A stretch of 44,214 nucleotides of DNA from Acetobacterium sp. (GTDB lineage: Bacteria > Bacillota > Clostridia > Eubacteriales > Eubacteriaceae), in NCBI GenBank assembly GCA_028692885.1, contig JAQUWM010000016.1:1-44214 (forward strand), in the 5' to 3' direction. Below are positions 16,153 through 36,728 of the stretch, piece by piece (the first letter of the stretch is position 1; each line of letters begins with the position of its first letter). The position numbers and the translations under genes are program-made. The notes under the pieces were generated by a model. It was not told the origin of the DNA and made no database searches. It saw nothing but the letters and a program-made list of their open reading frames with translations.

Positions 16153-17076
16153 TTAATATAATTTTTGGAACACCAGGCTGGGAAAATTATTAAAAACACG
16201 GTGTTTTGGCGATAATTCCACCATTTCAGCTTCTTCTATCGCACTTCTTGCATCATAGTCAATTAATATTTTATTTCGTTCATAAATTGGATCTGGCACC
16301 GGCACTGCTGATAATAAGGACTGCGTATAGGGATGAGCCGGTCTTGTGAAAATTTCTTCGGTTGGCCCAATTTCCATAATCTTTCCATGAAGCATCACTG
16401 CCACCTTGTCACAGATAAATTTAATTATTGAAAGATCATGGGCAATCAAAAGAAACGAAAACCCATGCTCCCGTTGCAACCGCTGAAATAAGGTGATTAT
16501 TTGAGCCTGTATGGAAACATCCAGTGATGCAATCGGTTCGTCAGCAATGATTAAATCCGGACTTGTACTCAAACACCGGGCAATCGCAACACGTTGTCGC
16601 TGACCACCCGATATTTCGGTTGGGTATTTCTTTTTAAAGGTGTGATCTAGTCCCACTTCCATTAAAAGGGTGTCCAATTTTTCCTGAATTTTATTTTTGT
16701 CTTGCAGCAATTTATTTACAACAATTGGCTCCGTTATAATTTCTTCAATTGTCATTCTGGGATTAAGTGCTGCTGCTGAATCCTGAAAGATAATCTGCAT
16801 ATTTTTGTTAATATCGCCTTTGTTTTTTCGATACACCCCCTTGTCCGAAATCAGATTTCCTTTAAAATAGACTTCGCCCGCTGTTGCCGGATAAATACCC
16901 ATGATGGTTCGGGCAACTGTCGATTTACCCGATCCCGTTTCACCAACTAAACCAACCACTTCGCCTTTTTTAACCTCAAAATCGACGCCATTGACGGCTT
17001 TAATTGTTAAATCTTTATTGATTTTAAAATGCTGTTGCAGATTTGACACACTTAAAATTGGCTCTGAATTCATCAT
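16153..17076 (-). CDS. peptide/nickel-family ABC importer A, ATPase (OppF/DppF-like)
   Basis: A 307-residue ATPase with Walker A GETGSGKST, signature ISGGQRQRVAIA, Walker B LIIADEPIASLDVS and the H-loop IAHDLSIIKFI. The C-terminal region begins like the oligopeptide-transporter tail (RPAHPYTQSLLSAVPVPDP) but ends after LSPKHRVFNNFPSLVFQKLY without the CRFHxRCP cysteine motif common in OppF. It overlaps the preceding ATPase gene by 4 nt. It is the last gene of importer A, followed by the terminator at 16086-16129. Confidence 0.9.
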   Translation of the reverse strand: MMNSEPILSVSNLQQHFKINKDLTIKAVNGVDFEVKKGEVVGLVGETGSGKSTVARTIMGIYPATAGEVYFKGNLISDKGVYRKNKGDINKNMQIIFQDSAAALNPRMTIEEIITEPIVVNKLLQDKNKIQEKLDTLLMEVGLDHTFKKKYPTEISGGQRQRVAIARCLSTSPDLIIADEPIASLDVSIQAQIITLFQRLQREHGFSFLLIAHDLSIIKFICDKVAVMLHGKIMEIGPTEEIFTRPAHPYTQSLLSAVPVPDPIYERNKILIDYDARSAIEEAEMVELSPKHRVFNNFPSLVFQKLY

Positions 17077-18092
17077 TCTTTTTCCATCCTTTTCAATGAA
17101 ATTGGTGGTTTAATTTTGGGTGCTTTTTCATCCATCAGCCATGTTGCTACATAATGGGTGGGTGAGACTTCATACATCGGGGGCATTTCTTCATAATCAA
17201 TGGCGAGAGCATATCGATTTCGTATCGCAAACGCGTCGCCTGGGGGTGGGTTTAGCATAATCGGTGGGGTTCCGGGAATGGTGGCCAACGACTCACCCGC
17301 CTTAGTCAGTGCCGGCAAAGCCGACATCAGTCCCCATACATAGGGATGTCTGGGGTTATAAAGTATATCTTCTGCGGTTCCAATCTCCACAATTTTTCCG
17401 GCATACATTACTGCCACGCGATCGGCAATTCTGGCAACAACACCCAGATCATGCGAAATAAACACAATGGAAATCCCGGTTTTATTACGGATATCTAACA
17501 GTAAGTCTAATATTTTTGCCTGAACCGTTACATCAAGCGCGGTGGTCGCTTCATCGGCAAACAAAATTTGGGGATTTGATACCAGGGCGATTGCCAGTAC
17601 ACAACGCTGTCTCATTCCGCCGGAAAAAAAGTGTGGCTGCAACGAAAACATCTCTTCCTCTCTGTTAATCCCCACCAAATTGAGCATTTCGATTCCCCGT
17701 TTTTTTGCCTCTTCCTTACTGACTTTATTGTGTTTAACAATAGCCTCTGTTATCTGTTTACCAATCGGAATTGTCGGGTTGAGGGTGGTCATCGGATCCT
17801 GAAAAACCATCGACATAACACCACCTCGCAGTTTTCTCATTTCCTTTTCTTTATAGTCGGTAATGTCTTCGCCATCGACAATGATTCGCCCTTGTTTGAT
17901 TCTGGATGTTTTCGGGAGCAGTTTTAGAACGGCTTGGCTCATCACCGTTTTTCCACAGCCAGATTCTCCGACAATGGCTAATATTTCGCCTTTCTTCAGT
18001 GACAGGCTGACATCTCTAACCGCTTCAACCTCACCATTTTTCGTATCAAAACTCACTGACAAATTTTGCAATTGTAAAATCGGTTCCTCCAT
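17073..18092 (-). CDS. peptide/nickel-family ABC importer A, ATPase (OppD/DppD-like)
   Basis: A 339-residue ATPase with Walker A GESGCGKT, signature FSGGMRQRCVLA, Walker B ILFADEATTALDVT and ISHDLGVVARIADRV. The C-terminal domain keeps the family frame (PGTPPIMLNPPPGD, then EEMPPMYEVSPTHYVATWL). However, the usual tail GCxFxPRCPxAxxxC reads GDAFAIRNRYALAID here, so all cysteines that bind a 4Fe-4S cluster in some Dpp/Opp ATPases are absent. It overlaps the next ATPase gene by 4 nt and lies 90 bp after the binding-protein gene. Confidence 0.9.
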   Translation of the reverse strand: MEEPILQLQNLSVSFDTKNGEVEAVRDVSLSLKKGEILAIVGESGCGKTVMSQAVLKLLPKTSRIKQGRIIVDGEDITDYKEKEMRKLRGGVMSMVFQDPMTTLNPTIPIGKQITEAIVKHNKVSKEEAKKRGIEMLNLVGINREEEMFSLQPHFFSGGMRQRCVLAIALVSNPQILFADEATTALDVTVQAKILDLLLDIRNKTGISIVFISHDLGVVARIADRVAVMYAGKIVEIGTAEDILYNPRHPYVWGLMSALPALTKAGESLATIPGTPPIMLNPPPGDAFAIRNRYALAIDYEEMPPMYEVSPTHYVATWLMDEKAPKIKPPISLKRMEKE

Positions 18093-18185
18093 CTATTGCC
18101 CTCCCTATTCTATCGATAGATGCCGGATGCTCAACTGAACATCCGGCAAACAAAGAATGCTTACAGCCTTTTATTTTGTGCTTAA

Positions 18186-19772
18186 TTATTTGTTAAGCGT
18201 CCAATCTTCAATATTCCACATCACACCAACGGCATGATGACCAAGAACGCGATCGGTATTGAGCCCGTCAAGTCCACTGATACTGACATAATTTCCATCC
18301 AGATAGGCAATCAGCACTGAAGCTGGCTGTTTTGCGAACGCTACTTCAAATTGACCATATAAGTCTTTTCTGGCTGTGACATCTTTCTCATGTCTGGCCT
18401 TTGTCAACAAGTCATCCACGACAGGGTTTGAGTATTTCATGGTGTTGGAACTACCAGCGGTGGTAAATTGGGCATAAAGTGCATCTGGATCAAATTCGAC
18501 AGCGTAGCCTGATAAGAATCCATTGTATCCAGATTTCCAGTCGAATTTTGTAACCAGAACAATTTCCATATCCACACCGGCTTCTTTTAGCTGTTTTGAG
18601 ACAATGTTGGCAATGTCAATTCGTTCTTCTTCATAATCCCGAACCTGAATGGTAAAATGGAATCTTTCCCCATTTCGTTCATAAATGCCATCAGCGCCTT
18701 TCGTCCAGCCCAATGCCTGCATTTCCTGGGCAAATTTGTTCAGATCTAATGTATAAATATCAGCGGCAGTATTTCCACCAAAGGCATTTAACTGAATCGG
18801 GCTGTATGCAGAGCTTCCCTGATTATTGAGCACACTCTTAACCACGGACTCTTTATCAATTGCATAGTTGAGAACCCCAACAGAATCCTTGTTTTTTATC
18901 CAGAAATCGGTTCGATTATCCACTGAAATCGCCCGATAGTCGGCGGTTGTAAAATCGATATTTTGATAACCATCTTTGCCTCGGAATTTTTCTGCATAGT
19001 TTGCGTTCAGCCAGGCTAGATCGGCTTCACCGGATTCAAGCATCAATGCTTTAGTATTTTCGACCGCAACGGTTTTATAAACCACCCGATCGATATTTGG
19101 CACCTTATCGTAATAATCGGCATTCTTTTCCAGGGTGATAGTTCCCCCTGTTTTATCCCACTCGACAAATTTGTAGCGGCCGGTTCCCACAGGCGCCTGA
19201 TTAAAGGATGCGGTGGTCAAATCCTGACCATCCAATAAATGTTTGGGAGCAATTCCAATGGTAAAATTGTCCAGCATGGCGGCGTTGAATTGGGAAAGCG
19301 TAATCGCCACGGTGTTGTCATCAATTGCCGTCACACTAGCAATGTCGGTATAGTTACTTAATACACTGGCCGATAAGGTGGTATCTTTTGTCAGCTTATC
19401 GTAGGTGAAAACAACATCCTGTGCTGTTAACGGTTGGCCATCATGCCATTTCACTCCTTTTCGCAATTTAAAGGTATACGTTAATGAACCCTCATCATAG
19501 GTATAACTTTCAGCCAAATCGATGATTGGCTTGCCTGATGCATCATACTTCATTAAACCCGAGAAAATGATCCCAGCCAATTCACTGCCCTCGTTAATAA
19601 TCGGGTTAATGGAATCTGCGGTTTCTCCAGCGTATACCAGAGTGTTTGACAGATCCGACCCAGTCGATGATTTTTTATCAGCCGATGCTGAGGAGCACCC
19701 CGCAAGACTTACCATGGTACTTACACAAAGTACCCCAACGAACAATTTGACAATCTTTTTCTTTACATTCAT
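18186..19772 (-). CDS. peptide/nickel-family ABC importer A, substrate-binding lipoprotein
   Basis: A 528-residue solute-binding protein of family 5 (SBP_bac_5; OppA/DppA/NikA superfamily). ATG 19772 is chosen because GAGGAG precedes it; the open frame extends further upstream without a ribosome binding site. A lipoprotein signal ends in VSLAGC. The family core is visible as GLMKYDASGKPIIDLAESYTYD, YTFKLRKGVKWHDGQPLTAQDVVFTYDKL and PVGTGRYKF. Ligand cannot be read from sequence: peptides, nickel chelates and other small molecules are all bound by this superfamily. It lies between the permease and ATPase genes of importer A. Confidence 0.92.
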   Translation of the reverse strand: MNVKKKIVKLFVGVLCVSTMVSLAGCSSASADKKSSTGSDLSNTLVYAGETADSINPIINEGSELAGIIFSGLMKYDASGKPIIDLAESYTYDEGSLTYTFKLRKGVKWHDGQPLTAQDVVFTYDKLTKDTTLSASVLSNYTDIASVTAIDDNTVAITLSQFNAAMLDNFTIGIAPKHLLDGQDLTTASFNQAPVGTGRYKFVEWDKTGGTITLEKNADYYDKVPNIDRVVYKTVAVENTKALMLESGEADLAWLNANYAEKFRGKDGYQNIDFTTADYRAISVDNRTDFWIKNKDSVGVLNYAIDKESVVKSVLNNQGSSAYSPIQLNAFGGNTAADIYTLDLNKFAQEMQALGWTKGADGIYERNGERFHFTIQVRDYEEERIDIANIVSKQLKEAGVDMEIVLVTKFDWKSGYNGFLSGYAVEFDPDALYAQFTTAGSSNTMKYSNPVVDDLLTKARHEKDVTARKDLYGQFEVAFAKQPASVLIAYLDGNYVSISGLDGLNTDRVLGHHAVGVMWNIEDWTLNK

Positions 19773-19814
19773 AACTTTTTCTCCTCTAAAATTATCTAAA
19801 CAGTATCTCAAAAA

Positions 19815-20720
19815 TCAGAGATAACTTTCCCGCTTATTTGTTTCTTTTCTAAAATAGTATGCAATATTGGTAACACACACCAGGGTGGTAATCAGAAATA
19901 CTCCCGGAAAGATAATGACCCACCATGAATTTGACAGCAACGCTTTGTTAGCCAGAGACAGCATACTACCCCAGGAAACGACATCAATGGGCAATCCCAA
20001 ACCCAAAAAGCTGAGCGTCGACTCCATCGAGATGCTGAGTCCAATGCTGGAGACTACCACAAACATAATGGTGGAGATAAAATTGGGAATCAGGTGTTTT
20101 ATCATAATATGAAAAAAGCCGCTCCCCATACATTGTGCCGCCAGGACATACTCACTACTGCGGATCTGTCTGACTTCACTCCGGACAATTCGCGCCAGAC
20201 CGCACCATCCGGTCACCCCAATGACAAATGATATTTTTACAATATTCTGGGTTCCCATTACCGATGTCAGCAATAAAATCAACAGTAGGTTGGGAATACT
20301 GTTCATCAGCTCGGGAATTCGCATCATGATTGAATCAACCCGGGAATTCGCGGTTCCGCTGACACAGCCATAGATAACACCAATCACGGTGATAATCGCC
20401 ATCCCCAATAAACCGATCAGAATGGATACCCGACCGCCATACCAGATCATCGAATAAATATCTCTTCCCAGGGAATCAGTGCCAAAATAAAATTCTGAGT
20501 TTGGCGGTTGATTAAGATTTTGTAGATAAAAACCGGTCGGATCATGATTATAAACCTGTTCCGCAAAAATACAGCCCAGAATGATAATCCCAAGAATAAC
20601 CATAGACAGGATCGGCATCCCTTTTATCTGCTGCCAGAAGGAAATCTTTTTCTCTGCTGATTCGTATGTTTTGTAATTCGCCCCGACTAGGACAAAGGGG
20701 TCTGTGGCGTTTCCTTCCAT
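19815..20720 (-). CDS. peptide/nickel-family ABC importer A, permease (OppC/DppC-like)
   Basis: A 301-residue permease with an N-terminal cytoplasmic segment, a first helix (ILSMVILGIIILGCIFA), the PNSEFYFGTDSLGRDIYSMIWYGGRVSI motif of the DppC/NikC family and five further helices. The EAA loop region (AAQCMGSGFFHIMIKHLIPNFISTI) contacts the ATPases. It overlaps the 3' end of the partner permease gene by 34 nt. Confidence 0.92.
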   Translation of the reverse strand: MEGNATDPFVLVGANYKTYESAEKKISFWQQIKGMPILSMVILGIIILGCIFAEQVYNHDPTGFYLQNLNQPPNSEFYFGTDSLGRDIYSMIWYGGRVSILIGLLGMAIITVIGVIYGCVSGTANSRVDSIMMRIPELMNSIPNLLLILLLTSVMGTQNIVKISFVIGVTGWCGLARIVRSEVRQIRSSEYVLAAQCMGSGFFHIMIKHLIPNFISTIMFVVVSSIGLSISMESTLSFLGLGLPIDVVSWGSMLSLANKALLSNSWWVIIFPGVFLITTLVCVTNIAYYFRKETNKRESYL

Positions 20721-21706
20721 GCGGTCACCTCCGTTAATTTCATTCTGGGATCAATGGCTTCATTGATAAACTGGGCAATAATACTGCTGGAAACAACCAT
20801 AACGCCGGTAATGAGAACAATCAACATCAATAAATTGTAATCATGATATTTGGCACTGGTAACCGACAGCGCTCCAATCCCCGGATAATTAAACACGGCT
20901 TCAGCAATAAAGGTCCCACTGAGAACATGAGGAATGGAGATCGCCATAATGTTGACAATGGTTGGTGCCACATTTCGAAAACAGTGTTTTAAAACGACCT
21001 CCGACTTCGTACATCCTTTTGATTTAGCCAGCAGCACATATTCTTTTCGGATTTCATCCAGCAGTTTGTTTCGGATCATGTAGGCGTAATACCAGAGATG
21101 ACTAAGTATCATTACCGTCAGGGGCAAAATCATATGCTGGATGCGGTTAAAAAGATCATCCGATTTACCAATATCATAAGCGCCACTACTGGGAAGCCAT
21201 CCCAGATTGATGCTAAAAATCAATACCAATACAACTCCCAGCCAAAATGACGGGATATAATAAGCCGCAGTTCCCACCTTACAGATAATCCGGTCAATCC
21301 AGGTGTCTTCATGCATGGCACAAAATAATGCCAAAATCGTTGCCAGCACAAATACCAGGATATAGGCAGTGCCCCCGAGAACCAGGGTGTTTCCGATTAA
21401 CGGGGCAATCACAGCCAATGCCGGCATTTTGTATTTTAGCGACATCCCAAAATCACCTTGCACAGCATTGCTGATCCATTTAACATACTGGAGTGCGATG
21501 GGGCCATCCAGTCCCAACCGCTCCCGTGCGGCATCCAGTTCAGGGGATGTCATCGACTCGACTGCATCGCCATAATAGGACTCCAGCGGATCGCCTGGCG
21601 CCAGACGGGCAAAGTAGAAAACCACAATTGATAAAAGCAGCATCGAAAGCAAAAACCATAGCGTTCGTTTGACTATTTTCTCGATTAACATCGATTTGCT
21701 GTTCAA
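20687..21706 (-). CDS. peptide/nickel-family ABC importer A, permease (OppB/DppB-like)
   Basis: A 339-residue permease with six helices. It shows the family's N-terminal pattern (FYFARLAPGDPLESYYG, then ARERLGLDGPIALQYVKWI, QGDFGMSLKYKMP) and the EAA loop KSKGCTKSEVVLKHCFRNVAPTIV. The start is uncertain: a TTG at 21706 lies very close to AGGA, while an in-frame ATG at 21691 is about 15 nt from it. It follows the methyltransferase gene by about 40 nt. Confidence 0.9.
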   Translation of the reverse strand: MNSKSMLIEKIVKRTLWFLLSMLLLSIVVFYFARLAPGDPLESYYGDAVESMTSPELDAARERLGLDGPIALQYVKWISNAVQGDFGMSLKYKMPALAVIAPLIGNTLVLGGTAYILVFVLATILALFCAMHEDTWIDRIICKVGTAAYYIPSFWLGVVLVLIFSINLGWLPSSGAYDIGKSDDLFNRIQHMILPLTVMILSHLWYYAYMIRNKLLDEIRKEYVLLAKSKGCTKSEVVLKHCFRNVAPTIVNIMAISIPHVLSGTFIAEAVFNYPGIGALSVTSAKYHDYNLLMLIVLITGVMVVSSSIIAQFINEAIDPRMKLTEVTAWKETPQTPLS

Positions 21707-21743: not shown

Positions 21744-22430
21744 TCATGAAATCAGCACACCCGTTTCTGATACCTTTGTTCCCATCAGAACAAACCATGG
21801 ATCATAATCATATCCCGGACGGGTCAAACCCGGTAACTTTTGTATCTGCACTTCAACAAGACCGTTTCTTTCCAAAAGCTCTTTCAGTTCTTCCATGCGA
21901 GCGCTCTTTACTACCAGATGGTTATCCACTTCTTCATCTTCATAAATATTAACCTTGCCAATATTTAGTCCAACGCCCTCTTTCATCCGGTTAAAACACA
22001 TAATTTTTCCCCCTGGTTTCAAAATTCTCAGCCATTCTCTGATTGCCAGATCCGGTTCAACCAGTGTCCAGATCAGCCGGGAATTGATAATAAAATCAAT
22101 GGTCTCGTTCATAAAGGGCAGATTTAAAACACTCCCTTCCATAAAAATGGCATCAGACGCTGCTGTTTTTGCATGCTTAACTGCATAATTCATCATCTCT
22201 CTTGATATATCAATCCCGATGGTTGAATGACCCAGCTTTGCCGTCATATTTGCCAGAAAGCCGGTTCCGGTTCCCAGATCCAGAACATTTTTATTCTGAT
22301 CCGTCCCTAAAAGATTGTTAAGCGCCTCCATCCATGCCTGCAAATCCTCCGTATCATGATCAGCATCAAACGAATCAGAACGCTTGTCCCAGTACGCTTC
22401 AATTTTTTTTATTACTCCAATTACTTCCAT
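21744..22430 (-). CDS. class I SAM-dependent methyltransferase (importer A operon, first gene)
   Basis: A 228-residue Rossmann-fold methyltransferase. Motif I is VLDLGTGTGFLANMTAKLG, the acidic ribose-binding residue is in IGIDISREMM, and motif II/post II reads MEGSVLNLPFMNETIDFIINSRLIWTL, followed by WLRILKPGGKIMCFN. Unlike ordinary UbiE enzymes it has a long C-terminal part ending DYDPWFVLMGTK. ATG 22430 follows AAAGGGGA. It is the first gene after the leader RNA at 22451-22504 and is transcribed with the ABC importer A genes. A methyltransferase is not part of standard peptide importers, so it may act on the transported compound. Substrate unknown. Confidence 0.85.
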   Translation of the reverse strand: MEVIGVIKKIEAYWDKRSDSFDADHDTEDLQAWMEALNNLLGTDQNKNVLDLGTGTGFLANMTAKLGHSTIGIDISREMMNYAVKHAKTAASDAIFMEGSVLNLPFMNETIDFIINSRLIWTLVEPDLAIREWLRILKPGGKIMCFNRMKEGVGLNIGKVNIYEDEEVDNHLVVKSARMEELKELLERNGLVEVQIQKLPGLTRPGYDYDPWFVLMGTKVSETGVLIS

Positions 22431-22450
22431 TTTTTCCCCTTTCAAAAAAC

Positions 22451-22504
22451 AAAAAACCACGAAAATTGATTTCTATCTACGATAGGACACTCAACCTTCA
22501 TGGC
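22451..22504 (-). terminator. leader hairpin A, terminator-like, conserved with 28546-28601
   Basis: On the minus strand GCCATGAA (22504-22497) pairs with TTCGTGG (22463-22457) and the following T, then a T6 run. The 33 nt inside contain a perfect small hairpin CTATC-GTA-GATAG (22485-22473). The same layout, with a different inner stem, precedes importer B. It lies just before the methyltransferase ribosome binding site. Confidence 0.65.
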
Positions 22505-22570
22505 TAAATTAATTGATTAAATTTTAAAATAAGTTTTCAGACAAGTCTTTCAATATTTTTGTGTTTGACA

Positions 22571-22583
22571 GTATATACCTGTA
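22571..22583 (-). promoter_or_regulatory. shared box A at the importer A start point
   Basis: TACAGGTATATAC on the minus strand, containing the palindrome GTATATAC. It begins 3 nt after the -10 of the importer A promoter and matches the importer B box at 28605-28617 at 11 of 13 positions. A position at the transcription start suggests a repressor site. Confidence 0.6.
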
Positions 22584-22586
22584 GAT

Positions 22587-22615
22587 ATGTTATTCCAGTA
22601 AAATCCATTTGTCAA
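22587..22615 (-). promoter_or_regulatory. promoter of importer A operon
   Basis: On the minus strand -35 TTGACA (22615-22610), a 17 nt spacer and -10 TAACAT (22592-22587). The start would be near 22580, giving a leader of about 150 nt that contains hairpin A. Confidence 0.7.
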
Positions 22616-22651
22616 TCATTATTTTGAACATCCTAACATCCGGTGAAAAAA

Positions 22652-23551
22652 TCAACAATCATGTTTAATTCTCTCTTTTCCCACGCTCCAAATCATAATT
22701 CCAATCATCGATGTCATCTTTTCAGAATATTTCCCATCCCTGTCACGATTACCAAAAATATACGCTTTAATCTTCGCTACTTTTATTCGACTAAGTTCCG
22801 TATAACAACCATATTCATGACAGATCGCCTCAAGGGCTTCTTCCGGATCTTGAATTTTCACCCATTCAAATGGTGAGTAACTCATTTCTGGTCTGTACCC
22901 CATTGAATAAACGAGATTGAAAGCATGTAGTATTTCATTACGCCCACTTTCAGGGAGAGCCCTCTCAAATATGATCTCATGTAGTTCAGCTTTTCTTGTG
23001 TTTTTTGACAGCCCTGAGAGCGAACTATAACAACAAATATCTCGGGAGGTTTGATTCATTTTTATCAACCCCTCAACGTTGCAGATCCCGGTATTCAGGT
23101 TTGAAATAACCAGGTCAAATTGTTTATGATAGTCTGGGCTCTCACTATCAACTTCAGACCAATCTTTATGAAGGCTGGCTATATTCTCCAAACCAGCCTT
23201 TTGTGTTTTTTCCGCTAATATTCTGAGCATGCTTTCTGAGCAATCCAGTCCAATAATTTTTTTACAGTATTTTGCAAGTTCGAGGGCATATATTCCCGTT
23301 CCACAGCCAATATCCAAAACCACCGTCTCCTTGTTTAAAATGTCTTTTGCTTTCAAGAGTTTAATGGTTTTATCAATTCTGCGACGATCCTTTTCCATCG
23401 TTTCATCGTATGAAAGGGCAATTTTATCCCATATTTGAGTCCCCGTTTTATTTAAGGAATCGACGGATTCATTATTTCTTTCAATCGCTGACGACCACTG
23501 TTCGCTTGCAAATTTTTCATAATTCTTCAAGAACGATACTTTTTGATTCAA
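22652..23551 (-). CDS. class I SAM-dependent methyltransferase (importer B operon, last gene)
   Basis: A 299-residue methyltransferase. An N-terminal part of about 75 residues (WSSAIERNNESVDSLNKTG, then WDKIALSYDETMEKDRRRID) precedes motif I VLDIGCGTGIYALELAKYC, the acidic IGLDCSESML and a DLVISNLNTGICN motif. The C-terminal third carries IFERALPESGRNEILHAFN and YSPFEWVKIQDPEEALE, unlike common metabolic methyltransferases. Start is TTG 23551 with GGAG six nt upstream; no ATG fits. It begins 13 nt after the importer B binding-protein gene and ends the operon. Its sequence differs greatly from the importer A methyltransferase, so the two are not recent duplicates. Confidence 0.85.
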   Translation of the reverse strand: MNQKVSFLKNYEKFASEQWSSAIERNNESVDSLNKTGTQIWDKIALSYDETMEKDRRRIDKTIKLLKAKDILNKETVVLDIGCGTGIYALELAKYCKKIIGLDCSESMLRILAEKTQKAGLENIASLHKDWSEVDSESPDYHKQFDLVISNLNTGICNVEGLIKMNQTSRDICCYSSLSGLSKNTRKAELHEIIFERALPESGRNEILHAFNLVYSMGYRPEMSYSPFEWVKIQDPEEALEAICHEYGCYTELSRIKVAKIKAYIFGNRDRDGKYSEKMTSMIGIMIWSVGKERIKHDC

Positions 23552-23564
23552 TTATTTCTCCACA

Positions 23565-25130
23565 TCATTCCTTGATATCAACAACATATAAGTCTGGTCT
23601 GAATGTTACATCAATTGCAAAATTCTCCACCTTTTTATTGGTAGCATACAAAGTCACGTCATTCCAAATTGGAATAATATAATTTTTGTCACTGATTAGT
23701 TTCTGAATTTGACTATAGTAATCCTGTCTTTTTTTCTTGTTTGGTTCAACGGCCACTTTTTGTATCAAGGCATCAAGGTCGGCATCGTTGATCCCGTAAT
23801 TTCGGGAAACGTTATTGGCTCCAGTGCTGAGTGCATTTCTTACAAAGAAGAAATTTGGTTCTCCTGAGGATACCGTAAATGGTTGCGGTGCAATATCATA
23901 TGTCCCTTCTTTTAAACGTTGCGTCCATGTTGCCGAATCGACTGTTTCAATCTGTGCTTCAATCCCAATCTCTTTTAACTGTGCTTGAATCGCAATAGCA
24001 ATGTCCTGATAAGGCCATCTGCCAAGCAGCGATGAATTTAACAAAATGATCGGGGCTGGCGTTTCTCCACTCACTGCTTCTGATTTTAATTTTTTTGCTT
24101 CTTCACTGTTAAATTGATACTTGCAGTCAACCGTCCAGTCTTTTGATGCTGCACTTAAAACGCTCATTGACGACTTACCATAGCCCAGCAGAATTTTATT
24201 AACGATCGTATCCCGATCGATGCTTAAGCTTAATGCATCACGAAGTTCCTCATTATTAAATACCTTGCCTTCGCTAGTATTCATAAAGTAATAATGCACC
24301 GTACCTACTAATTGTTCACTTAGAACTAAATTTTGGTCACTCTCAATTTGAGCTGCCTGTTGAGGCAAAATGCCACCTACATCAGATATGACATCAATTT
24401 CTCCACTTTGCAACGCAGCAAGTCGTGTTGTGGGATCGGCGATATTTTTAAATTCCACCGTATCCAATTGAGGTTCTCCCAGATGATAATCCGCAAATTT
24501 TTCTAAATAAAGAACCTGCGTTTGTTCGTTGTATTCCTTGTATTTATATGGACCAGTCCCATAAGGGAAGGTAATGGCCTTATTTTCGTTAAACGAACTG
24601 GATGCAAACATTACCCCGTTTTCATAAACCAACCGCGTATTAAAATCCGGTATCGGTTCTGCATGGGTGACCGTAAATGTCGTCTCATCCACGACACTCA
24701 TGTTTGTAATTTTCCCAAACTCGCCAACGGATTCGTAGGCTGGATCATATTCTTTCTTAACGGTATTGAAATGATATAAGCGATCCAGATTCAAAATGGC
24801 ACCCTCTGAATTCAAGGTGCTACCATCATGAAACTTAACATTTTTCTTTAATTTGATTGTCCATGTCAACCCATCCTCAGAGGGTGCCATCGATTCAGCT
24901 AACCACATCACCGGATTCATGTCGTTATCAAAACGCGCTAAAGACTCCCAGACATTGCTGCTTCCATGAACATATACGTTTGACCCCTCCCCCAACCAGA
25001 ATGTTCTCCCGGCACCAATAATTAAATCCTTTGGTTCATCCGGTGCTGTTTCTGCAGATGCGGAGCACCCTGTAAACAGCAGCAAAACCGACAATAAAAC
25101 AGTCACCACACTCATTACTTTTCTCTTCAT
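23565..25130 (-). CDS. peptide/nickel-family ABC importer B, substrate-binding lipoprotein
   Basis: A 521-residue family 5 solute-binding protein. ATG 25130 follows AAGGAG; the frame extends five codons further without a separate site. The lipobox is LLLFTGC. The start of the mature protein (DLIIGAGRTFWLGEG, NVWESLARFDNDMNPVMWLAESM, TWTIKLKKNVKFHDGSTLN) resembles NikA-type proteins more than OppA, and the gene follows two short ATPases typical of NikDE. A nickel-chelate or dipeptide ligand is therefore plausible but unproven. Confidence 0.9.
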   Translation of the reverse strand: MKRKVMSVVTVLLSVLLLFTGCSASAETAPDEPKDLIIGAGRTFWLGEGSNVYVHGSSNVWESLARFDNDMNPVMWLAESMAPSEDGLTWTIKLKKNVKFHDGSTLNSEGAILNLDRLYHFNTVKKEYDPAYESVGEFGKITNMSVVDETTFTVTHAEPIPDFNTRLVYENGVMFASSSFNENKAITFPYGTGPYKYKEYNEQTQVLYLEKFADYHLGEPQLDTVEFKNIADPTTRLAALQSGEIDVISDVGGILPQQAAQIESDQNLVLSEQLVGTVHYYFMNTSEGKVFNNEELRDALSLSIDRDTIVNKILLGYGKSSMSVLSAASKDWTVDCKYQFNSEEAKKLKSEAVSGETPAPIILLNSSLLGRWPYQDIAIAIQAQLKEIGIEAQIETVDSATWTQRLKEGTYDIAPQPFTVSSGEPNFFFVRNALSTGANNVSRNYGINDADLDALIQKVAVEPNKKKRQDYYSQIQKLISDKNYIIPIWNDVTLYATNKKVENFAIDVTFRPDLYVVDIKE

Positions 25131-25197
25131 TATTTTCTCCTTCAAAATGATTTATCAGAAATTAAGACTCTGTCCTAATTCAAGAACTTTTTTATAC

Positions 25198-25965
25198 CTA
25201 TAGTCTTGCTTTCAATAACTTTTGCGTGTAGGGATGATGATTGTCCAGGCTCCCGAAATTTTTTGCAATCTCCAGAATTTTTCCATTTTTCATGATCGCC
25301 TTTCGATTACAAAAATCATCCACAAGACCAATATCATGAGAAATGAACACCATCGTCACATCAAAGTTTTGATTCAACTTTTTCAGTAATTCAATAATCT
25401 GTTTTGACGTAATCATATCCAGATTCGATGTCGACTCATCCAATATTATACAGTCCGGCTTTAACGCAAGCGCTCTGGCGATTGAAACCCGCTGTCGTTG
25501 ACCGCCACTTAATTGTGCCGGTTTTCGAGAAGCCCATGAACTGGAAAGGCCCACGTCTTCCAATAATTTTTCAGCAATTCCCTGCTCCGGAAGACGAAAA
25601 TTTTTCAGCGGCTCGGTTATTATTTTTTTTAACGTCATTTGCGGATTAAGTGACGAACTACTATTTTGAAACACTGCCTGCATACGTTTTCTCACCGGCA
25701 AAAAATCCCGATACGATTTCAATTTGGCGATATCAACGGTGTCAAATACAATTTCTCCACTATCTGGTTTAGTCAGACCAAGCATGAGATTCACAAGCGT
25801 CGTTTTTCCGCAACCACTTTCACCGATTAGTCCAAAGATTTCCCCTTTTTCAATGGTAAAACTGATATCATCCACTGCCGTATTATTCACAATGATTTTT
25901 TGTTTTCTTTTGTTTTCTTTTTTATAAGTCTTCGTTACTCTATTTATTTTAATTAATTCTGTCAC
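25198..25965 (-). CDS. peptide/nickel-family ABC importer B, ATPase (NikE-like)
   Basis: A 255-residue ATPase with Walker A GESGCGKTT, signature LSGGQRQRVSIA, Walker B CIILDESTSNLDM (Ser in place of the usual Pro after the catalytic Glu) and ISHDIGLVDDF. It ends right after HPYTQKLLKARL, lacking the whole C-terminal oligopeptide domain; this short form is the one seen in NikE. It lies about 20 nt after the other ATPase gene. Confidence 0.9.
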   Translation of the reverse strand: MTELIKINRVTKTYKKENKRKQKIIVNNTAVDDISFTIEKGEIFGLIGESGCGKTTLVNLMLGLTKPDSGEIVFDTVDIAKLKSYRDFLPVRKRMQAVFQNSSSSLNPQMTLKKIITEPLKNFRLPEQGIAEKLLEDVGLSSSWASRKPAQLSGGQRQRVSIARALALKPDCIILDESTSNLDMITSKQIIELLKKLNQNFDVTMVFISHDIGLVDDFCNRKAIMKNGKILEIAKNFGSLDNHHPYTQKLLKARL

Positions 25966-25984
25966 GATCTATCGCCTTTCTTTT

Positions 25985-26755
25985 TTAGATAATTGATGCA
26001 ATTAACTCAATGGTGTATGTCTCTTGAGGCGAACTAAAAATTTCCGCTGTCGCATTCTGTTCGATTATTATGCCGTCTTTCATGATAATAATGTCATCAC
26101 AAACACTCTTTAACTCCGCCAGATTATGAGAAATATAGACCATCGCGAGATTTTCTCTCGCTTTCAAACTCTTTAACTCCATGATGATCTGCTTCTTGAT
26201 TGAAGCATCAATGGCTGATGTTGGTTCATCTGCTATTAACACCTGCGGTGAAAGCGACAACGCCGCCGCAATGACAATGCGTTGTTTCATTCCGCCGCTA
26301 AGTTCATAAGGATATTTATTCATCACCTCCGCGGCATCCGCAAGGTGTACCGACTCCAGTTTGTTCAGGATTATTTTATCGAGCACGCTTTTATCTTTGG
26401 AAACACTTGCCAAAATATCATAAAATTGGCGCTTAATAATCCTCACAGGATTTAATGCCGTCGAAGGATCCTGAAAAACCATCGAGATTTCTCTGCCTCT
26501 TATTTTATCCATTTTTTTGCGACTGCGTTTTAACAGATCTTTCCCCTGAAAAATAATTTCTCCCTCAATGACGGCATTAGCAGAAAGAATACCGAGTATT
26601 CCTTTTGCGATGGTACTTTTTCCGGAACCACTGGCCCCAGCGATACCCAACACCTGACCTTCTTCCAGCGTAAAGCTCACCTCAGAGACGGCCAAATAGC
26701 TGGTGTCTTCTATTTTATAGGATATGGAAAGGTTGTTCACTTCCAGTAACCGCAT
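25985..26755 (-). CDS. peptide/nickel-family ABC importer B, ATPase (NikD-like)
   Basis: A 256-residue ATPase: Walker A GASGSGKST, signature LSGGMKQRIVIA, Walker B VLIADEPTSAIDAS, then ISHNLAELKSV. ATG 26755 follows GAGGGG and lies 1 nt after the permease stop codon; the longer open frame into the permease gene has no ribosome binding site. The protein ends soon after QETYTIELIASII, without the oligopeptide C-terminal extension, matching NikD length. Confidence 0.9.
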   Translation of the reverse strand: MRLLEVNNLSISYKIEDTSYLAVSEVSFTLEEGQVLGIAGASGSGKSTIAKGILGILSANAVIEGEIIFQGKDLLKRSRKKMDKIRGREISMVFQDPSTALNPVRIIKRQFYDILASVSKDKSVLDKIILNKLESVHLADAAEVMNKYPYELSGGMKQRIVIAAALSLSPQVLIADEPTSAIDASIKKQIIMELKSLKARENLAMVYISHNLAELKSVCDDIIIMKDGIIIEQNATAEIFSSPQETYTIELIASII

Positions 26756-26756
26756 T

Positions 26757-27572
26757 CTATAGCCCCTCCAGTTCCTCATTTGAAGCCAGCGCATCGCCAA
26801 TCAGATTAAACGCCAACACCACTGCAATGATGGTGATAATCGGATATAGAATCATTTGGGGTGACTTTGTGATATACATCCTGGCCTCATTAATCATCAT
26901 TCCCCACTCCGCTTCGGATGCCTGGGCGCCTAATCCAATAAATGATAATCCTGAAATTGTCAGTATCGTTGAGCCAATATCCGTTACAATTAAAGTCCCG
27001 ATGGTATTTTTTATATTCGGCAGGATATGCCAAGTGATGATATGAAGGTGATTCGTTCCTGCTACCCGGGCGGCTTTGACATAGTCGGCATTTTTTACCC
27101 CGATAACTAACCCCCGAATAACCCGCGCATAATTGGCCCAGGACACAATGGCAATGGCAATCATAATATTTAGCACACCCGGTCCGAGCATGCCTGCGAT
27201 TACAAGTGCAAAAAGAATTCCGGGGAAGGCAAGCAAAACCTCACACAGCGCCGTAAAAATTTTATCAATCAGCCGGTCTGAAAAAATTCCGGCTACTGTA
27301 CCAACAAGAGTTCCGATCGAAATTGAGACCAGCAGCACGAGACCGGTAACCATTAAAGACGTTCTTGCCCCGTATAATAAACGCGATAAAATGCAACGCC
27401 CCAGTTGATCTGTCCCTAACGGGAATTCTCTTGATGAATGGTTTAAGCTATTCATGACATCAATTTTTTGGGGATCATTCGGCGCTAGAATCGGTGCAAA
27501 TATCGCCAGACCGATCACAATTAAGACCAACAGAATCCCGATTAACAACTGTATCTTTTTTATTTTCATCAT
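26757..27572 (-). CDS. peptide/nickel-family ABC importer B, permease (NikC/DppC-like)
   Basis: A 271-residue permease. It has a short N-terminus, a first helix (LLIGILLVLIVIGLAIFAPI), then SREFPLGTDQLGRCILSRLLYGARTSL, the DppC/NikC signature, and an EAA loop in AARVAGTNHLHIITWHILPNI. The start is ATG 27572 or the next ATG, both after TTGGAG. It overlaps the 3' end of the NikB-like gene by about 98 nt, an unusually long overlap. Confidence 0.9.
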   Translation of the reverse strand: MMKIKKIQLLIGILLVLIVIGLAIFAPILAPNDPQKIDVMNSLNHSSREFPLGTDQLGRCILSRLLYGARTSLMVTGLVLLVSISIGTLVGTVAGIFSDRLIDKIFTALCEVLLAFPGILFALVIAGMLGPGVLNIMIAIAIVSWANYARVIRGLVIGVKNADYVKAARVAGTNHLHIITWHILPNIKNTIGTLIVTDIGSTILTISGLSFIGLGAQASEAEWGMMINEARMYITKSPQMILYPIITIIAVVLAFNLIGDALASNEELEGL

Positions 27573-28503
27573 TATCTCCAACTAGCCATTGGGCTGGTAT
27601 TAACAGTCCATAGATTAAATCAACACCAATATTGATCAGCATATAAACACTGGCCATTATCAGCGCATACGCTTGAATCACCGGATAATCTCGCCCATAG
27701 ATTGCTTGTACCAGGAAACTGCCGGCTCCCGGCCATGCAAAAAGGGTTTCGATAATGGCCGACCCTCCCAATAATCCCCCAATCATTAATCCGATTGATG
27801 TGATAATTGGTGGCAGCGCATTTTTAAGGATATGATTTTTCACGATGCGAAAGTTGCTGACCCCAAAAACTCGTGCTGCAGTGACATGATTCATCTTAAT
27901 AACTGCCAACATTTGAATCCGGATGAGTCGCGCCAATCCTGCCCCAGCAATAACACCAATTGATAAAGATGGCAAAATAAGATGCTTCAATCCACCGATC
28001 CCCATAACCGGCAATAATTTAAGATTCACACCAAAAACAAGAATCAGCAATATTCCCAGACAAAACGATGGAATCGATATGGCAATGGTATTATACAAAG
28101 AAATCCCCACATCCAGTATTTTCCCTTTTTTAAGTGCTGACGCAATACCGAGCGGAAAACCGATCAGAAGCATCGCAATGGTTGCTCCAAATGTTAACAA
28201 CAAGGTCGCTGGTAGTCGAACCATAAATTCATGTAAAACCGGTTGATTTGTTTTATATGAATTTCCAAAGTCACCTTTTATAACATCCATCAGCCAATCA
28301 AAATATTGTACCGTCCAGGTTCGGTTTAATCCCAGGTATTCTTCTGCCTCCAGCCGTTCTTCCAGGGTGGGATTCTCTTTGTTTGAAAGCAGTGTATCCA
28401 CCGGATCTCCTGGTGCTACCCTCCCCATCACAAAGGTAAGCAGCGAAACACCCAGCAATACAAAAAAAGCGTATAAAATTCTCTTACTTATATACTTAAT
28501 CAT
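27475..28503 (-). CDS. peptide/nickel-family ABC importer B, permease (NikB/DppB-like)
   Basis: A 342-residue permease with MGRVAPGDPVDTLLSNKENP, EEYLGLNRTWTVQYFDWLMDV and KGDFGNSYKTNQPV, and an EAA loop in AARVFGVSNFRIVKNHILKNALPP. The C-terminal 35 residues after LLIPAQWLVGDN are hydrophilic and encoded within the start of the next gene in another frame; family members usually end near this point. It is the first gene of importer B, about 45 nt after leader hairpin B. Confidence 0.9.
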   Translation of the reverse strand: MIKYISKRILYAFFVLLGVSLLTFVMGRVAPGDPVDTLLSNKENPTLEERLEAEEYLGLNRTWTVQYFDWLMDVIKGDFGNSYKTNQPVLHEFMVRLPATLLLTFGATIAMLLIGFPLGIASALKKGKILDVGISLYNTIAISIPSFCLGILLILVFGVNLKLLPVMGIGGLKHLILPSLSIGVIAGAGLARLIRIQMLAVIKMNHVTAARVFGVSNFRIVKNHILKNALPPIITSIGLMIGGLLGGSAIIETLFAWPGAGSFLVQAIYGRDYPVIQAYALIMASVYMLINIGVDLIYGLLIPAQWLVGDNDENKKDTVVNRDSVGLNCDRSGDICTDSSAE

Positions 28504-28545
28504 CTATTCTACCTTCTTTATTTCGACGTAAATGATCGCATCAAT

Positions 28546-28601
28546 AAAAAAAAGCCACGAAAAAATGTGCCGGTCTACAAACCGAAACAAGTCTTCATGA
28601 C
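28546..28601 (-). terminator. leader hairpin B, terminator-like, conserved with 22451-22504
   Basis: On the minus strand GTCATGAA (28601-28594) pairs with TTCGTGGC (28561-28554), followed by T8 (28553-28546). The 32 nt inside hold CGGT-TTGTAG-ACCG (28584-28571). Outer stem sequence, distance and U-tract match leader A, while the inner stem differs in both arms so that pairing is kept. Loop sequence GTAG is shared. Confidence 0.65.
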
Positions 28602-28604
28602 TTT

Positions 28605-28617
28605 GTATATACAGGTA
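28605..28617 (-). promoter_or_regulatory. shared box B upstream of importer B
   Basis: TACCTGTATATAC on the minus strand, 11 of 13 identical to box A at 22571-22583. Just upstream, CATATTAA may serve as the -10 region, at about the same distance as in operon A; the -35 is not clear. Confidence 0.55.
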
Positions 28618-28700
28618 TTAATATGAAACTATCTTCTCATAACCGATGCGTTGAGTCAACTCATTTTTTTCAGCAAATGAAAAATTCATTTAGAATACAT

Positions 28701-29966
28701 TTACTGAGCCAGCACTGCCAACGCCTTGACAATAATGTCAAAATTCTTCGCCATACTGTCAATGCTCCAGAATTCATCAGTCTGATGACAGGTGTTGATC
28801 TCACCGGGAAAGACGCCGCCAAAAGCTACGGCGTTATCAAAGGCCCGGGCATAGGTTCCGCCGCCCGAGACAATCGGACCGCTAGTATCGCCAGTGTAGT
28901 CGGAATATACTTTTTGCAGCGATGTGACCAGAAAACTGTCCTGATCCACATGCAGCGGCAGCGTTTCATGATCCATTTTCAGGGAAAACCCGAGATCGCC
29001 AGTGGCTTTCTGGATCGCTGCGCAAATATCGCTGCTCTTCATCGTCACCGGGTAGCGGATATCACAGCGGAGCACGGCGATATGATCATCCGCATAAGCA
29101 ATGGCTGGATTAAGGGTCAGATCCCCTGACACCTGATCAGACCGGTTAATTCCAAAACCTTCCGGCGTCGCCCGATCAAGCAGCTCCAAAATCGGATGCT
29201 GGATGCCCGCCGCCCGTAATTCTCCCGCCAGTTTTAGTAGCGCATTATCACCTTTTTGCGGATCGGAAGCATGAGCGGATTTACCCCTGGCTTCGTAGCT
29301 CTGGCCATTGTAATCAGCCCGGGCAACATCCGGAACCGAATTAATCTGTTTACCGCTGCTTAGGTTTAGCACCGGTCGGCCAGCCTCCAATTCTTTTTCG
29401 AAAATTACATTCATGATACCCTTTTCCGCAAAAATAACCGGGAAGCCGGAATCCGGCGAGAAGGCGTAGACCGGTGTTTCTTCAGTTTCTTTGTAGCGTT
29501 TCATACAAGCCCAGCTGCCACCTTCTTCATCGCCGCCGATAATCAGGCGAATCCGTTTATTGATCGGGACCTGGGCCTCTTTCAGGGCTTTCAAGGCAAA
29601 CAGGGCAATGATGGTGAGCCCTTTATCGTCCAATACCCCACGGCCATAAACCGTATCGCCGTCAATAGTCAAGTCAAACGGCGGCACGGTCCAATCATCG
29701 CCCACTTCCACCGTATCAACATGCGTGATCGCTGCTACCATTTCCGGGCCTGCTCCGAATTCCACGTAACCACAATAGCCGTCACAGTTTTTGGTGGTCA
29801 AGCCGAAACTTTTACCCAACTCTAACACGTAATTGATGGCCTCATTGATGCCGGTTCCCAAGGGCGCTTCTTGAGTGACCGCTCCAGTGTTGGCGTTCAC
29901 CGACTTTATTTGTAACAGCCCTCGTAGGGCCTCTAACACTGCTTGTTTATCAAAATGAATGGTCAT
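28701..29966 (-). CDS. PepV-like M20 dipeptidase, paralog 2
   Basis: A 421-residue metallopeptidase of the PepV/Sapep group. Zinc ligands are in ITHVDTVEVGDDW, GVLDDKG and GGDEEGGSWACM (catalytic Glu and ligand Glu), followed by FSPDSGFPVIFAEKG; the last His is in NTCHQTDEFW. ATG 29966 with GGGGA upstream gives the same length as its neighbour; the open frame extends into the intergenic region without support. The two neighbouring genes are clear paralogs in tandem, for example INEAINYVLELGxxFG and TKNCDGYCGYVE in both. Such enzymes cleave dipeptides in the cytosol, consistent with the peptide-family importers next door. Confidence 0.93.
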   Translation of the reverse strand: MTIHFDKQAVLEALRGLLQIKSVNANTGAVTQEAPLGTGINEAINYVLELGKSFGLTTKNCDGYCGYVEFGAGPEMVAAITHVDTVEVGDDWTVPPFDLTIDGDTVYGRGVLDDKGLTIIALFALKALKEAQVPINKRIRLIIGGDEEGGSWACMKRYKETEETPVYAFSPDSGFPVIFAEKGIMNVIFEKELEAGRPVLNLSSGKQINSVPDVARADYNGQSYEARGKSAHASDPQKGDNALLKLAGELRAAGIQHPILELLDRATPEGFGINRSDQVSGDLTLNPAIAYADDHIAVLRCDIRYPVTMKSSDICAAIQKATGDLGFSLKMDHETLPLHVDQDSFLVTSLQKVYSDYTGDTSGPIVSGGGTYARAFDNAVAFGGVFPGEINTCHQTDEFWSIDSMAKNFDIIVKALAVLAQ

Positions 29967-30021
29967 GTTTTCCCCATTTCTGTCGCTATGATTTAGGGTT
30001 AGCGCATGGCCACCCCTGCTA

Positions 30022-31287
30022 TTATTGTACCAGACTTTCCAGGGCTTTAGTGATAATATCAAAATTCTTGTTCATGCTGATTATGCTCCAGTACTCATCG
30101 GTCTGATGACAGGTGTTCGGTTCCTCGGGGAATCGCCCTCCAAAAGCCACGGCATTATCAAAGGCCCGGGCGTAGGTGCCGCCGCCAATTGCCTTGGGGC
30201 CAGTCGTATCCCCAGTATAATCTTCATATATTTTTTGCAGGGCATCGATAAGATAACTTTCTTTCTCAATATGGAGCGGTGGCAAATCATAATTGATGTT
30301 AACCGAAAAACCCAGGGGGGTAACAGCTCTTTCAATGTGATCCCGGATGTCGGTTCCTTTCATGGTTACCGGATAACGGATATCGCACTTTAGCACCGCT
30401 TTTTCCTGATTGACATTGGCAATTGATGGATTAACGGTAAGTTTCCCGGAAATTTCATCTTCAAAATCGATATTCAGTCCTTCCGAGGTGGCAATGTCGA
30501 TAAGATCCAGAAAGGGGTGTTCCAACCCCAGCATTCTCAGCTCACCGGCCAATAAAAACATCGCATTGATCCCCTCATGGGGCTGAGATGCATGAGCGGG
30601 TTTACCAGTACTTTCATAAACAGCATCACTAACAATGGCCTTGGCGTAATCGGGAACAGTATTGATCTGATTGCCGCTGAAAAAGCCCAGGTTGTGAATC
30701 GCCGGCTCCAGATGCTTTTTGATGCAGACATTCAGAATACCCTTTTCGGCATAAATGGCCGGATACCCGGAATCTGGTGAAAAGGCATAGGTCGGAGCTT
30801 CTTCAGTGGCTTTGTAGCGGTTCATACAATGCCATTGTTCGCCTTCTTCATCGCCACCGATAATCAGCCGCACCCGTTTATTGATCGGCACTCCACTATC
30901 GGCCAGGGCCTTCATGGCATAAAGCGCCACCAGGGTCGGACCCTTGTTGTCGATGGTGCCCCGGCTATAGGCCTTGTCCCCGTCAATGGTCAGATCAAAG
31001 GGATTGACCGACCAGCCGTCCCCCACCGGCACAGTATCCACATGGGTCAAAATGCCAATCATCTCTTCGCCCTGACCCATTTCAACATAACCGCAATAAC
31101 CGTCACAATTTTTGGTTCTAAAACCAAAGCGCTCGCCCAGTTCCAGAACATAATTGATGGCCTCGTTAATGCCAATCCCCAGGGGCGCCCCCGGTATCAC
31201 CGGTCCGGCATCGGCATTGGTTGAATCAATTTGCAGCAGCCCCTTCAGGTCGTCTAACAGGTCTTTTTCCTTAAGTTTATCGTTCAT
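30022..31287 (-). CDS. PepV-like M20 dipeptidase, paralog 1
   Basis: A 421-residue M20 metallopeptidase, tandem paralog of the gene at 28701. Metal and catalytic motifs are LTHVDTVPVGDGW, GTIDNKG, GGDEEGEQWHCM, FSPDSGYPAIYAEKG and NTCHQTDEYW. Its ATG overlaps the last codons of the DUF1653 gene by 11 nt, and the second dipeptidase follows after about 55 nt, so DUF1653-pepV-pepV form one operon. In the first paralog the active-site triad motif is IDNKG where the second has LDDKG, a small change near a zinc ligand. Confidence 0.93.
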   Translation of the reverse strand: MNDKLKEKDLLDDLKGLLQIDSTNADAGPVIPGAPLGIGINEAINYVLELGERFGFRTKNCDGYCGYVEMGQGEEMIGILTHVDTVPVGDGWSVNPFDLTIDGDKAYSRGTIDNKGPTLVALYAMKALADSGVPINKRVRLIIGGDEEGEQWHCMNRYKATEEAPTYAFSPDSGYPAIYAEKGILNVCIKKHLEPAIHNLGFFSGNQINTVPDYAKAIVSDAVYESTGKPAHASQPHEGINAMFLLAGELRMLGLEHPFLDLIDIATSEGLNIDFEDEISGKLTVNPSIANVNQEKAVLKCDIRYPVTMKGTDIRDHIERAVTPLGFSVNINYDLPPLHIEKESYLIDALQKIYEDYTGDTTGPKAIGGGTYARAFDNAVAFGGRFPEEPNTCHQTDEYWSIISMNKNFDIITKALESLVQ

Positions 31288-32760: not shown

Positions 32761-32794
32761 ACAGGAGGCAGAATTTTTCTGCCCCCTGTTTTTT
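32761..32794. terminator. bidirectional terminator between DUF975 and rib operon
   Basis: ACAGGAGGCAGAA pairs with TTCTGCCCCCTGT (one mismatch) with a 3 nt loop. A T6 run follows on the plus strand, and TTTTAAAT follows on the minus strand. It lies between the convergent ends of the DUF975 gene and ribH. Confidence 0.85.
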
Positions 32795-33260: not shown

Positions 33261-33297
33261 TGTCTTCTCCCTATATTTTATTTTTATATAATGTCTC

Positions 33298-36564: not shown

Positions 36565-36601
36565 AAATAAACAAAGATTCATTAACATGCAAAACTTTAT
36601 T

Positions 36602-36710: not shown

Positions 36711-36728
36711 TGCTATTTAATTGATTAA

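Follow-up and report, generated by a model that had tools for sequence, protein, structure and literature searches.

Two transport operons of an Acetobacterium genome carry what appears to be the same terminator-like leader RNA, which raises the question of what this leader is and what it responds to. The operons, each combining an ATP-binding cassette (ABC) transporter of the Nik/Opp type with a methyltransferase gene, lie on the minus strand of contig JAQUWM010000016.1, of which we analyzed a stretch of 44,214 nucleotides (hereafter the window); their leaders are termed A and B. A first-pass annotation, made from the letters alone, had described both as a conserved outer stem around a changing inner stem and had suggested an attenuator that senses the transported compound or a metal. 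The leader family is in fact larger than supposed there and occurs in many oxygen-avoiding bacteria before nickel- and cobalt-uptake genes. Judging from comparative sequence analysis, each leader is probably a nickel-responsive transcription attenuator of a nickel (or nickel/cobalt) acquisition regulon, read by a protein when nickel is scarce.

Two matching leader hairpins in the window

The sequence-level observation of two matching leader hairpins is confirmed. Read on the minus strand, leader A has CATGAA at 22502-22497 and TTCGTG at 22463-22458 around an interior of 33 nt, followed by a T-run starting at 22456, and its inner stem is CTATC (22485-22481) with GATAG (22477-22473). Leader B has the same outer stem at 28599-28594 and 28561-28556 around 32 nt, a T-run at 28553-28546 and the inner stem CGGT (28584-28581) with ACCG (28574-28571). 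All of these elements lie where the first-pass annotation had placed them, and both leaders do stand directly 5′ of the first operon gene, i.e., the methyltransferase with its ATG at 22430 (A) and a NikB-like permease with its ATG at 28503 (B). The parts of the two leaders are given below, with scores for R1, a covariance model built from seven leaders over the outer 12 bp only; P1 to P3 are the helices discussed in the following section.

22446..22508, minus strand: leader A, whole putative attenuator hairpin with U-tract; terminator stem P3 22505-22491 with 22469-22455; R1 score 59.9 bits, itself an R1 seed
22489..22509, minus strand: leader A, predicted alternative hairpin P1 of 8 bp with loop AUGAA (22501-22497); covariation in homologues
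22473..22485, minus strand: leader A, inner hairpin P2 with triloop GUA, predicted in both states; loop outside the GRA/NGNA class
28544..28604, minus strand: leader B, whole putative attenuator hairpin with U-tract; P3 28604-28592 with 28563-28551; R1 score 69.4 bits, itself an R1 seed
28589..28603, minus strand: leader B, alternative hairpin P1 of 5 bp with loop AUGAA (28598-28594), predicted in the growing-transcript fold
28570..28585, minus strand: leader B, inner hairpin P2 with loop UGUA

The minimum free energies are -20.8 kcal/mol for leader A (z -5.3) and -23.8 kcal/mol for leader B (z -6.2), with none of 200 shuffles as stable, and all seven leaders folded show the stable stem and subsequent U-run of an intrinsic terminator. 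In the 3.03-Mb genome assembly (87% complete), the pattern CATGAAG-N20-50-TTCGTGGNTTTT has exactly two sites, leaders A and B, and its reversed version has none, so that the pair is not a product of chance. Two sequences alone are insufficient to show conservation, which rests on the wider set of homologues. R1 adds two weaker sites in this genome, L104 before CbiM and L103 before a transposase-like gene. At the latter (G000:C30:3745-3792; L103, L288) the gene was recognized as transposase-like by eye, and it is perhaps an insertion behind an old leader.

A hairpin that competes with the terminator

The proposal of an attenuator before Nik-type ABC-methyltransferase operons holds insofar as the leader is conserved and of the terminator type; its informative part, however, is not the changing inner stem but a hairpin hidden in the terminator. 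Sequences flanking AYGAA in the 5′ arm of the terminator are complementary to each other and can form the hairpin P1, which is mutually exclusive with the terminator. When the growing transcript is folded computationally, P1 is part of the lowest-energy structure at lengths of 42 to 66 nt in leader A, where it has 8 bp, and of 36 to 66 nt in leader B, where it has 5 bp and takes a shifted form at 48 nt; once the 3′ arm emerges, the terminator replaces P1 and P2 stays. Computed folds and covariation hence agree on the hallmark of an attenuator, a conserved alternative hairpin sharing bases with the terminator.

Among 95 non-redundant sites from the R1 searches, P1 pair 2 is CG in 70, TA in 12, TG in 12 and CC in one, and pair 4 is AT in 59, TA in 16, GC in five, GT in four and something else in 11. 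Over pairs 2-6, 298 of 475 cells are Watson-Crick, compared to a mean of 228 and a maximum of 251 in 1000 shuffles, and a shift of the right arm by one or two positions leaves at most 201. For the P1 pairs outside the search pattern, 77 pattern-matched sites gave 119 of 231 (mean 76, maximum 98; 1000 shuffles). Judged by these counts, P1 looks to be under selection in its own right. For 13 of the 196 sites P1 could not be parsed for this count, several of them having the loop GTGAA, and L147 shows no readable motif.

The inner stem is ruled out as the chief conserved element, as it changes completely between leaders and only the loop class of P2 is often kept. An NGNA loop closes P2 in 46 of 97 leaders versus 1.2 in shuffles (maximum 3), and an NGAA or NNGAA loop in 22 of 79 leaders of the pattern set versus 0.6 (maximum 3); the control loops AGA, AAG, GNRA and UUCG were not enriched, except for AAG in the first set of 97 leaders (4 versus 0.6). 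Moreover, 32 of the 77 pattern-matched leaders have a hairpin with a GAA loop (P0) in the 150 nt upstream, compared to 1.9% of shuffles. The distance from P0 to P1 is highly variable and spans about 13 to 156 nt; the underlying list contains some hairpins due to chance and lacks a separate shuffle control. Most leaders, but not all, have additional hairpins with related loops, which the inner-stem account had missed. Two leader-type hairpins stand in tandem before one operon in L066, L077, L107, L074, L098 and L085, as known from some riboswitches.

Homologues and their distribution

The covariance search that the first-pass annotation had recommended returned homologues with covarying stems, mostly before Nik-type or other metal genes. 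With the window's genome included in each set, R1 matched in 24 of 40 genomes of the family (18 of 19 in the genus, 5/5 in the Eubacterium-like g3 and 1/1 in g6), in 15 of 391 genomes of the class and in 25 of 398 of the phylum. Ten of 85 R1 matches were omitted from the later tables (eight opposite-strand duplicates, one truncated and one weak, with E 0.041). A stricter pattern was run on the genomes of 84,980 species and gave at least 119 stretches, all of which entered the scan for CooT described below, while the P1 statistics on the pattern set draw on the 80 loci listed (81 sites). The 80 pattern matches listed come mostly from Clostridia, other Bacillota and Deltaproteobacteria/Desulfobacterota, and a few from Synergistaceae, Latescibacterota, Pseudomonadota and metagenome-assembled genomes (MAGs) of Armatimonadetes. 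In the class genomes the real stem was present at 13 places in 12 of the 391, and one scrambled stem of equal degeneracy at none. An uptake-sequence-like repeat is ruled out by the zero to seven R1 matches per genome, mostly before metal genes.

The leader had not been recognized as a known riboswitch, and comparison with Rfam bears this out: at the gathering threshold of Rfam 15 the window contains the flavin mononucleotide (FMN), 5S and small-subunit (SSU) families only, with no match at either leader. Seven near loci searched up to E 5 gave no leader match except the sub-threshold SpF43_sRNA over an upstream tandem copy (L004 1611-1698), which reached 25.5 of 70 bits and was judged to be chance. 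Twenty further loci gave none at the gathering threshold, and 13 of these none at a leader at E ≤ 1. We found no published description in the literature searched, the reach of which excluded bioRxiv preprints and most subscription journals. The leader RNA is apparently undescribed, being absent from Rfam 15 at the scanned loci and from the searched papers.

The genes behind the leaders

The two operons of the window differ in gene order, A running methyltransferase-permease-permease-SBP5-ATPase-ATPase and B permease-permease-ATPase-ATPase-SBP5-methyltransferase.

21744..22430, minus strand: operon A, first gene, class I S-adenosylmethionine-dependent methyltransferase of 228 aa (Methyltransf_11, E 1.8e-19)
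16153..21706, minus strand: operon A, remainder, two permeases, SBP_bac_5 and two ABC ATPases (Nik/Opp type)
22652..28503, minus strand: operon B, two permeases, two ABC ATPases, SBP_bac_5 (best match Opp5A_nikA, under the cut-off) and methyltransferase

Clustering of the first downstream genes of 196 sites yielded 34 methyltransferases, 24 SBP_bac_5, 24 CbiM, 13 DUF4198, 10 permeases, nine ABC ATPases, eight FmdE, six Peripla_BP_2, five CobN, four energy-coupling factor (ECF) S components and smaller groups. As this set contains orthologues and tandem copies, the counts are not independent events; cluster names were taken from Pfam matches of representatives (which gave CbiM, DUF4198, FmdE, CobN, Ni_insertion, FeFe hydrogenase and CsoR) or from the window's own genes. 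Genes that occur once include LarC/Ni_insertion (L146), a TM1266-like regulator of hydrogenase (L201) and a CsoR-family repressor (L070). Metal-type groups take in 33 of the 40 sites that the class and phylum searches gave (11/13 and 22/27), L122 and L126 being counted by their ECF gene. By eye, Nik, CbiM, FecB-like, ECF or methyltransferase genes follow 12 of the 13 sites of the exact class-wide search, the remaining site standing before a transposase-like gene. Behind three leaders from Syntrophomonas and a related Firmicutes MAG, L186 (by Pfam) as well as L192 and L215 (by cluster), stands a [FeFe] hydrogenase gene, which suggests a nickel-sparing isozyme switch.

This gene set resembles the one predicted earlier for the nickel repressor NikR in delta-proteobacteria, i.e., NikMQO, NikK and an Fe-only hydrogenase (PMC545781; this and the other papers are cited from excerpts of their text), and therefore points to nickel. 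Consistently, a DUF4198 protein binds Ni2+ with a dissociation constant (Kd) of 18 nM (PMC12537917). Despite the same kinds of target genes, NikR is a DNA repressor with an operator, and it is missing from 23 of the 26 leader-bearing genomes tested, with matches in G252, G551 and G658. The suggested sensing of "the transported compound or a metal" can accordingly be narrowed: a metal is plausible, and the regulon argues for nickel (or nickel/cobalt). An ECF S component lies behind the leader in L121, L125, L126, L128, L132 and L145 (PF12822 by Pfam for L128, the others by cluster or by eye), next to a kinase-like gene in L121 and L128 and a methyltransferase in L132; it is perhaps an uncharacterized nickel or cobalt S component.

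Promoter-like sequences and an upstream box

Two further elements lie upstream of the hairpins.

28631..28659, minus strand: promoter-like TTGACT-N17-GAAGAT with TATGA, upstream of leader B
22571..22578, minus strand: GTATATAC box upstream of leader A
28605..28612, minus strand: GTATATAC box directly 5′ of leader B

The same promoter-like arrangement was found 24-37 nt 5′ of the hairpin at 18 family sites, orthologues counted. The GTATATAC box stands near promoter-like sequence in 29 of 73 leaders of the family, and within 130 nt in none of 117 leaders outside it; it is a probable DNA operator for some regulator working alongside the leader RNA.

A putative nickel switch

In the mechanism that we propose, transcription would start a few tens of bases 5′ of the hairpin, as the promoter-like sequence implies, and the nascent RNA would fold P1 with its AYGAA loop first and then P2, often with an NGNA or NGRA loop; in many species P0, with the same kind of loop, would precede both. 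If P1 is left unheld, the 3′ arm TTCRTGG would invade, the terminator would form and the genes would remain silent. At low nickel, an RNA-binding protein acting in trans could grip the GRA-type loops and hold P1, so that polymerase continues. Uptake genes and a nickel-free hydrogenase should be on under nickel scarcity and, as the terminator is the more stable end state, some factor must then hold P1. The analysis shows the structures and that they exclude each other, the covariation of P1, the enriched loops, the regulon and the broad distribution. We infer that termination takes place in the cell, which way the response runs, that the signal is nickel and not cobalt, and that a protein is the reader. 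The best candidate for this reader would be CooT, a small nickel-binding dimer often encoded together with DUF3842 near the leaders.

CooT surfaced when all genes neighboring the leaders were clustered, and PF10133 was confirmed in 8/8 proteins. Eight of the 119 pattern loci contain it, as do 6 of 28 from the phylum search and 1 of 13 from the class search, and, if the same genome or genus is counted once, about 13 independent leaders have it within 2 kb. L140, L183 and L252 encode nearly the same CooT protein and are thus close relatives. The gene shares its strand with the nearest leader in all cases but L215; the L215 gene recurs in L140, there with a same-strand leader. CooT adjoins DUF3842 in nine of the roughly 13 independent loci. 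It ends just 5′ of the leader in L224 (about 28 nt) and L153, while in L268 and L177 the DUF3842-CooT pair lies 3′ of the leader. In a nickel gene cluster of an Acetobacterium genome, a CooT frame with an in-frame stop (L080:4449-4595, minus strand) and DUF3842 beside it (L080:3960-4382, minus strand) lie about 1.9 kb before a leader.

A predicted model of the L224 protein matches CooT crystal structures, with weak next matches; CsrA is not among the fold-search matches listed, by which a CsrA-like fold is not excluded. NCBIfam provided no name for three CooT and two DUF3842 proteins. CooT was presumably once catalogued as a predicted RNA-binding protein, an entry for which we found no confirmation. 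In Rhodospirillum it is a dimer that binds one nickel per dimer with a Kd of 9 nM and has an unclear role (PMC6006190). The gene is reported to lie beside Wood-Ljungdahl genes in E. limosum and A. woodii, and C. autoethanogenum deleted for it had less AcsB and CooS1 but more AcsE and AcsD, the table of that study, as excerpted, naming no nickel transporter (PMC10230548). CooT is further present in some operons for carbon monoxide dehydrogenase (CODH) and in cable bacteria, where the excerpts hold nothing on RNA (PMC13056359, PMC11247825). CooT has been described as a CODH accessory protein, and excerpts of PMC10230548, PMC6006190, PMC13056359 and PMC11247825 report no RNA target. We tentatively raise the possibility that CooT, with DUF3842, is a nickel-sensing RNA-binding antiterminator of the regulon across Clostridia, other Bacillota and Desulfobacterota, metal-free dimers bridging two GRA-loop hairpins and holding P1, and nickel releasing them so that the terminator forms. 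It could alternatively be a nickel chaperone of the same regulon, which is equally compatible with the evidence.

Alternative explanations

The main rival is a direct metal riboswitch, in which the loops of P1, P2 and P0 would bind Ni2+, Co2+ or a nickel/cobalt compound without any protein. Small dual-hairpin riboswitches such as guanidine-II exist, and the conserved loops, the tandem copies in e.g., L066, L077 and L107 and the wide distribution without one proven regulator gene are all in line with such a switch. We nevertheless consider it unlikely, since a P1 stabilized by its ligand would turn uptake genes on when the metal is present, the wrong direction for uptake and for a nickel-free [FeFe] hydrogenase, and since the P0-P1 distance varies far more than in a compact aptamer. 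As P1 would need holding when nickel is scarce, a metal-free protein fits better than a metal-bound aptamer. Between reading by the RNA alone and by a protein, anatomy and logic lean toward a protein. Like the leaders, the NiCo (czcD) and cobalamin riboswitches are leader RNAs linked to cobalt and nickel genes, but there was no Rfam match at the scanned leaders, and the junction architectures of these riboswitches are not seen here.

Constitutive terminators that only insulate or lower expression, their sequence being kept by chance or shared ancestry, would account for the good intrinsic terminators of all seven folded leaders and for the few that sit at non-regulon places (L288, L127). This is improbable, however, given that the letters of the stem and not merely its pairing are kept across phyla (with the scrambled stem at 0 versus 13), that the right arm of P1 covaries with the left arm in B-type leaders, whose terminator has an internal loop, and that promoter-like sequence recurs upstream at the family sites.

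Control at the DNA level, via the GTATATAC box or repressors of the CsoR or NikR type with the hairpin being secondary, is very improbable: the closeness of the box to promoter-like sequence in the family and a CsoR-family gene within the regulon would suit it, whereas the 117 non-family leaders without a nearby box and the 23 genomes without NikR do not, and control through GTATATAC may supplement control by RNA instead of replacing it.

That ANTAR antiterminators or CsrA read the leaders is barely credible, and as a general reader either is contradicted by the loop class and by leader-bearing genomes without the gene, ANTAR being missing from 5 of 26 (G206, G551, G570, G610 and G658) and CsrA from 10 of 26, all in family f1 (Acetobacterium and Eubacterium-like, 10/10). 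The architecture of ANTAR targets (eut, nas and ami leaders) is similar, with two small hairpins with conserved loops and an alternative pairing that gives the terminator, so that loop binding would block termination; these targets, however, need loops of six nucleotides, with A1 and G4, on short stems (PMC3369931). The leaders mostly have loops of 4-5 nt, AYGAA or NGRA, instead of AxxGxx hexaloops on 3-bp stems. With CsrA/RsmA they share repeated hairpins, an A-N-G-R-A-like loop resembling the A(N)GGA site and, on our proposal, a small dimer as reader; they are dominated by GAA and not GGA, and their proposed action is on transcription. We class the leader as a putative terminator-type attenuator with recognition hairpins, outside the ANTAR, CsrA, NiCo and cobalamin families.

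Several observations weigh against the preferred reading of a protein-read nickel attenuator. For P1, a slide of -1 in the pattern set still leaves 108 pairs versus 119, the shuffle controls leave kinship in, and the seven P1-containing seeds of R1 are among the 95 sites. Under the rules of the script, 56 of 174 leaders, including leader A, have neither a GRA/NGNA P2 nor a GRA P0. One of the 19 genus genomes (G012) has no R1 match, and the reversed real pattern gave one match (G200) in the class genomes. Seven of the 40 class and phylum sites (L123, L127, L134, L137, L150, L152 and L156) are off-regulon or unassigned, as are L288 (transposase-like, in the window's genome) and the repeat-like L188 and L232. 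CbiM and CobN are also cobalt genes, so that nickel and cobalt are not separated. CooT, finally, is present in only one (L080, with its in-frame stop) of the 51 stretches taken around family leaders and absent from the 2.0 of 2.97 Mb scanned of the leader-bearing G252 (another Clostridia family), and its neighbor count stands without a background rate from leaderless nickel genes.

Other features of the window

An ordinary FMN riboswitch (36598-36713, minus strand) accompanies ribBA and ribH genes (32793-34500). Directly upstream of operon B lie two neighboring genes for M20 dipeptidases of the Sapep family (28701-31287, minus strand).

Significance

Nickel enzymes, i.e., CODH/acetyl-CoA synthase and hydrogenases, are indispensable to acetogens, syntrophs and sulfate reducers. 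A shared leader RNA would explain how nickel uptake is controlled where NikR is missing, as in 23 of the 26 genomes, and, in some of these organisms, how a nickel-free hydrogenase takes over. Functions would also be suggested for uncharacterized transporters, namely the ECF S component and the ABC systems linked to FmdE or to methyltransferases, and perhaps for CooT and DUF3842 as well. In this context, a CooT antiterminator, if true, would be the protein-RNA counterpart of NikR.

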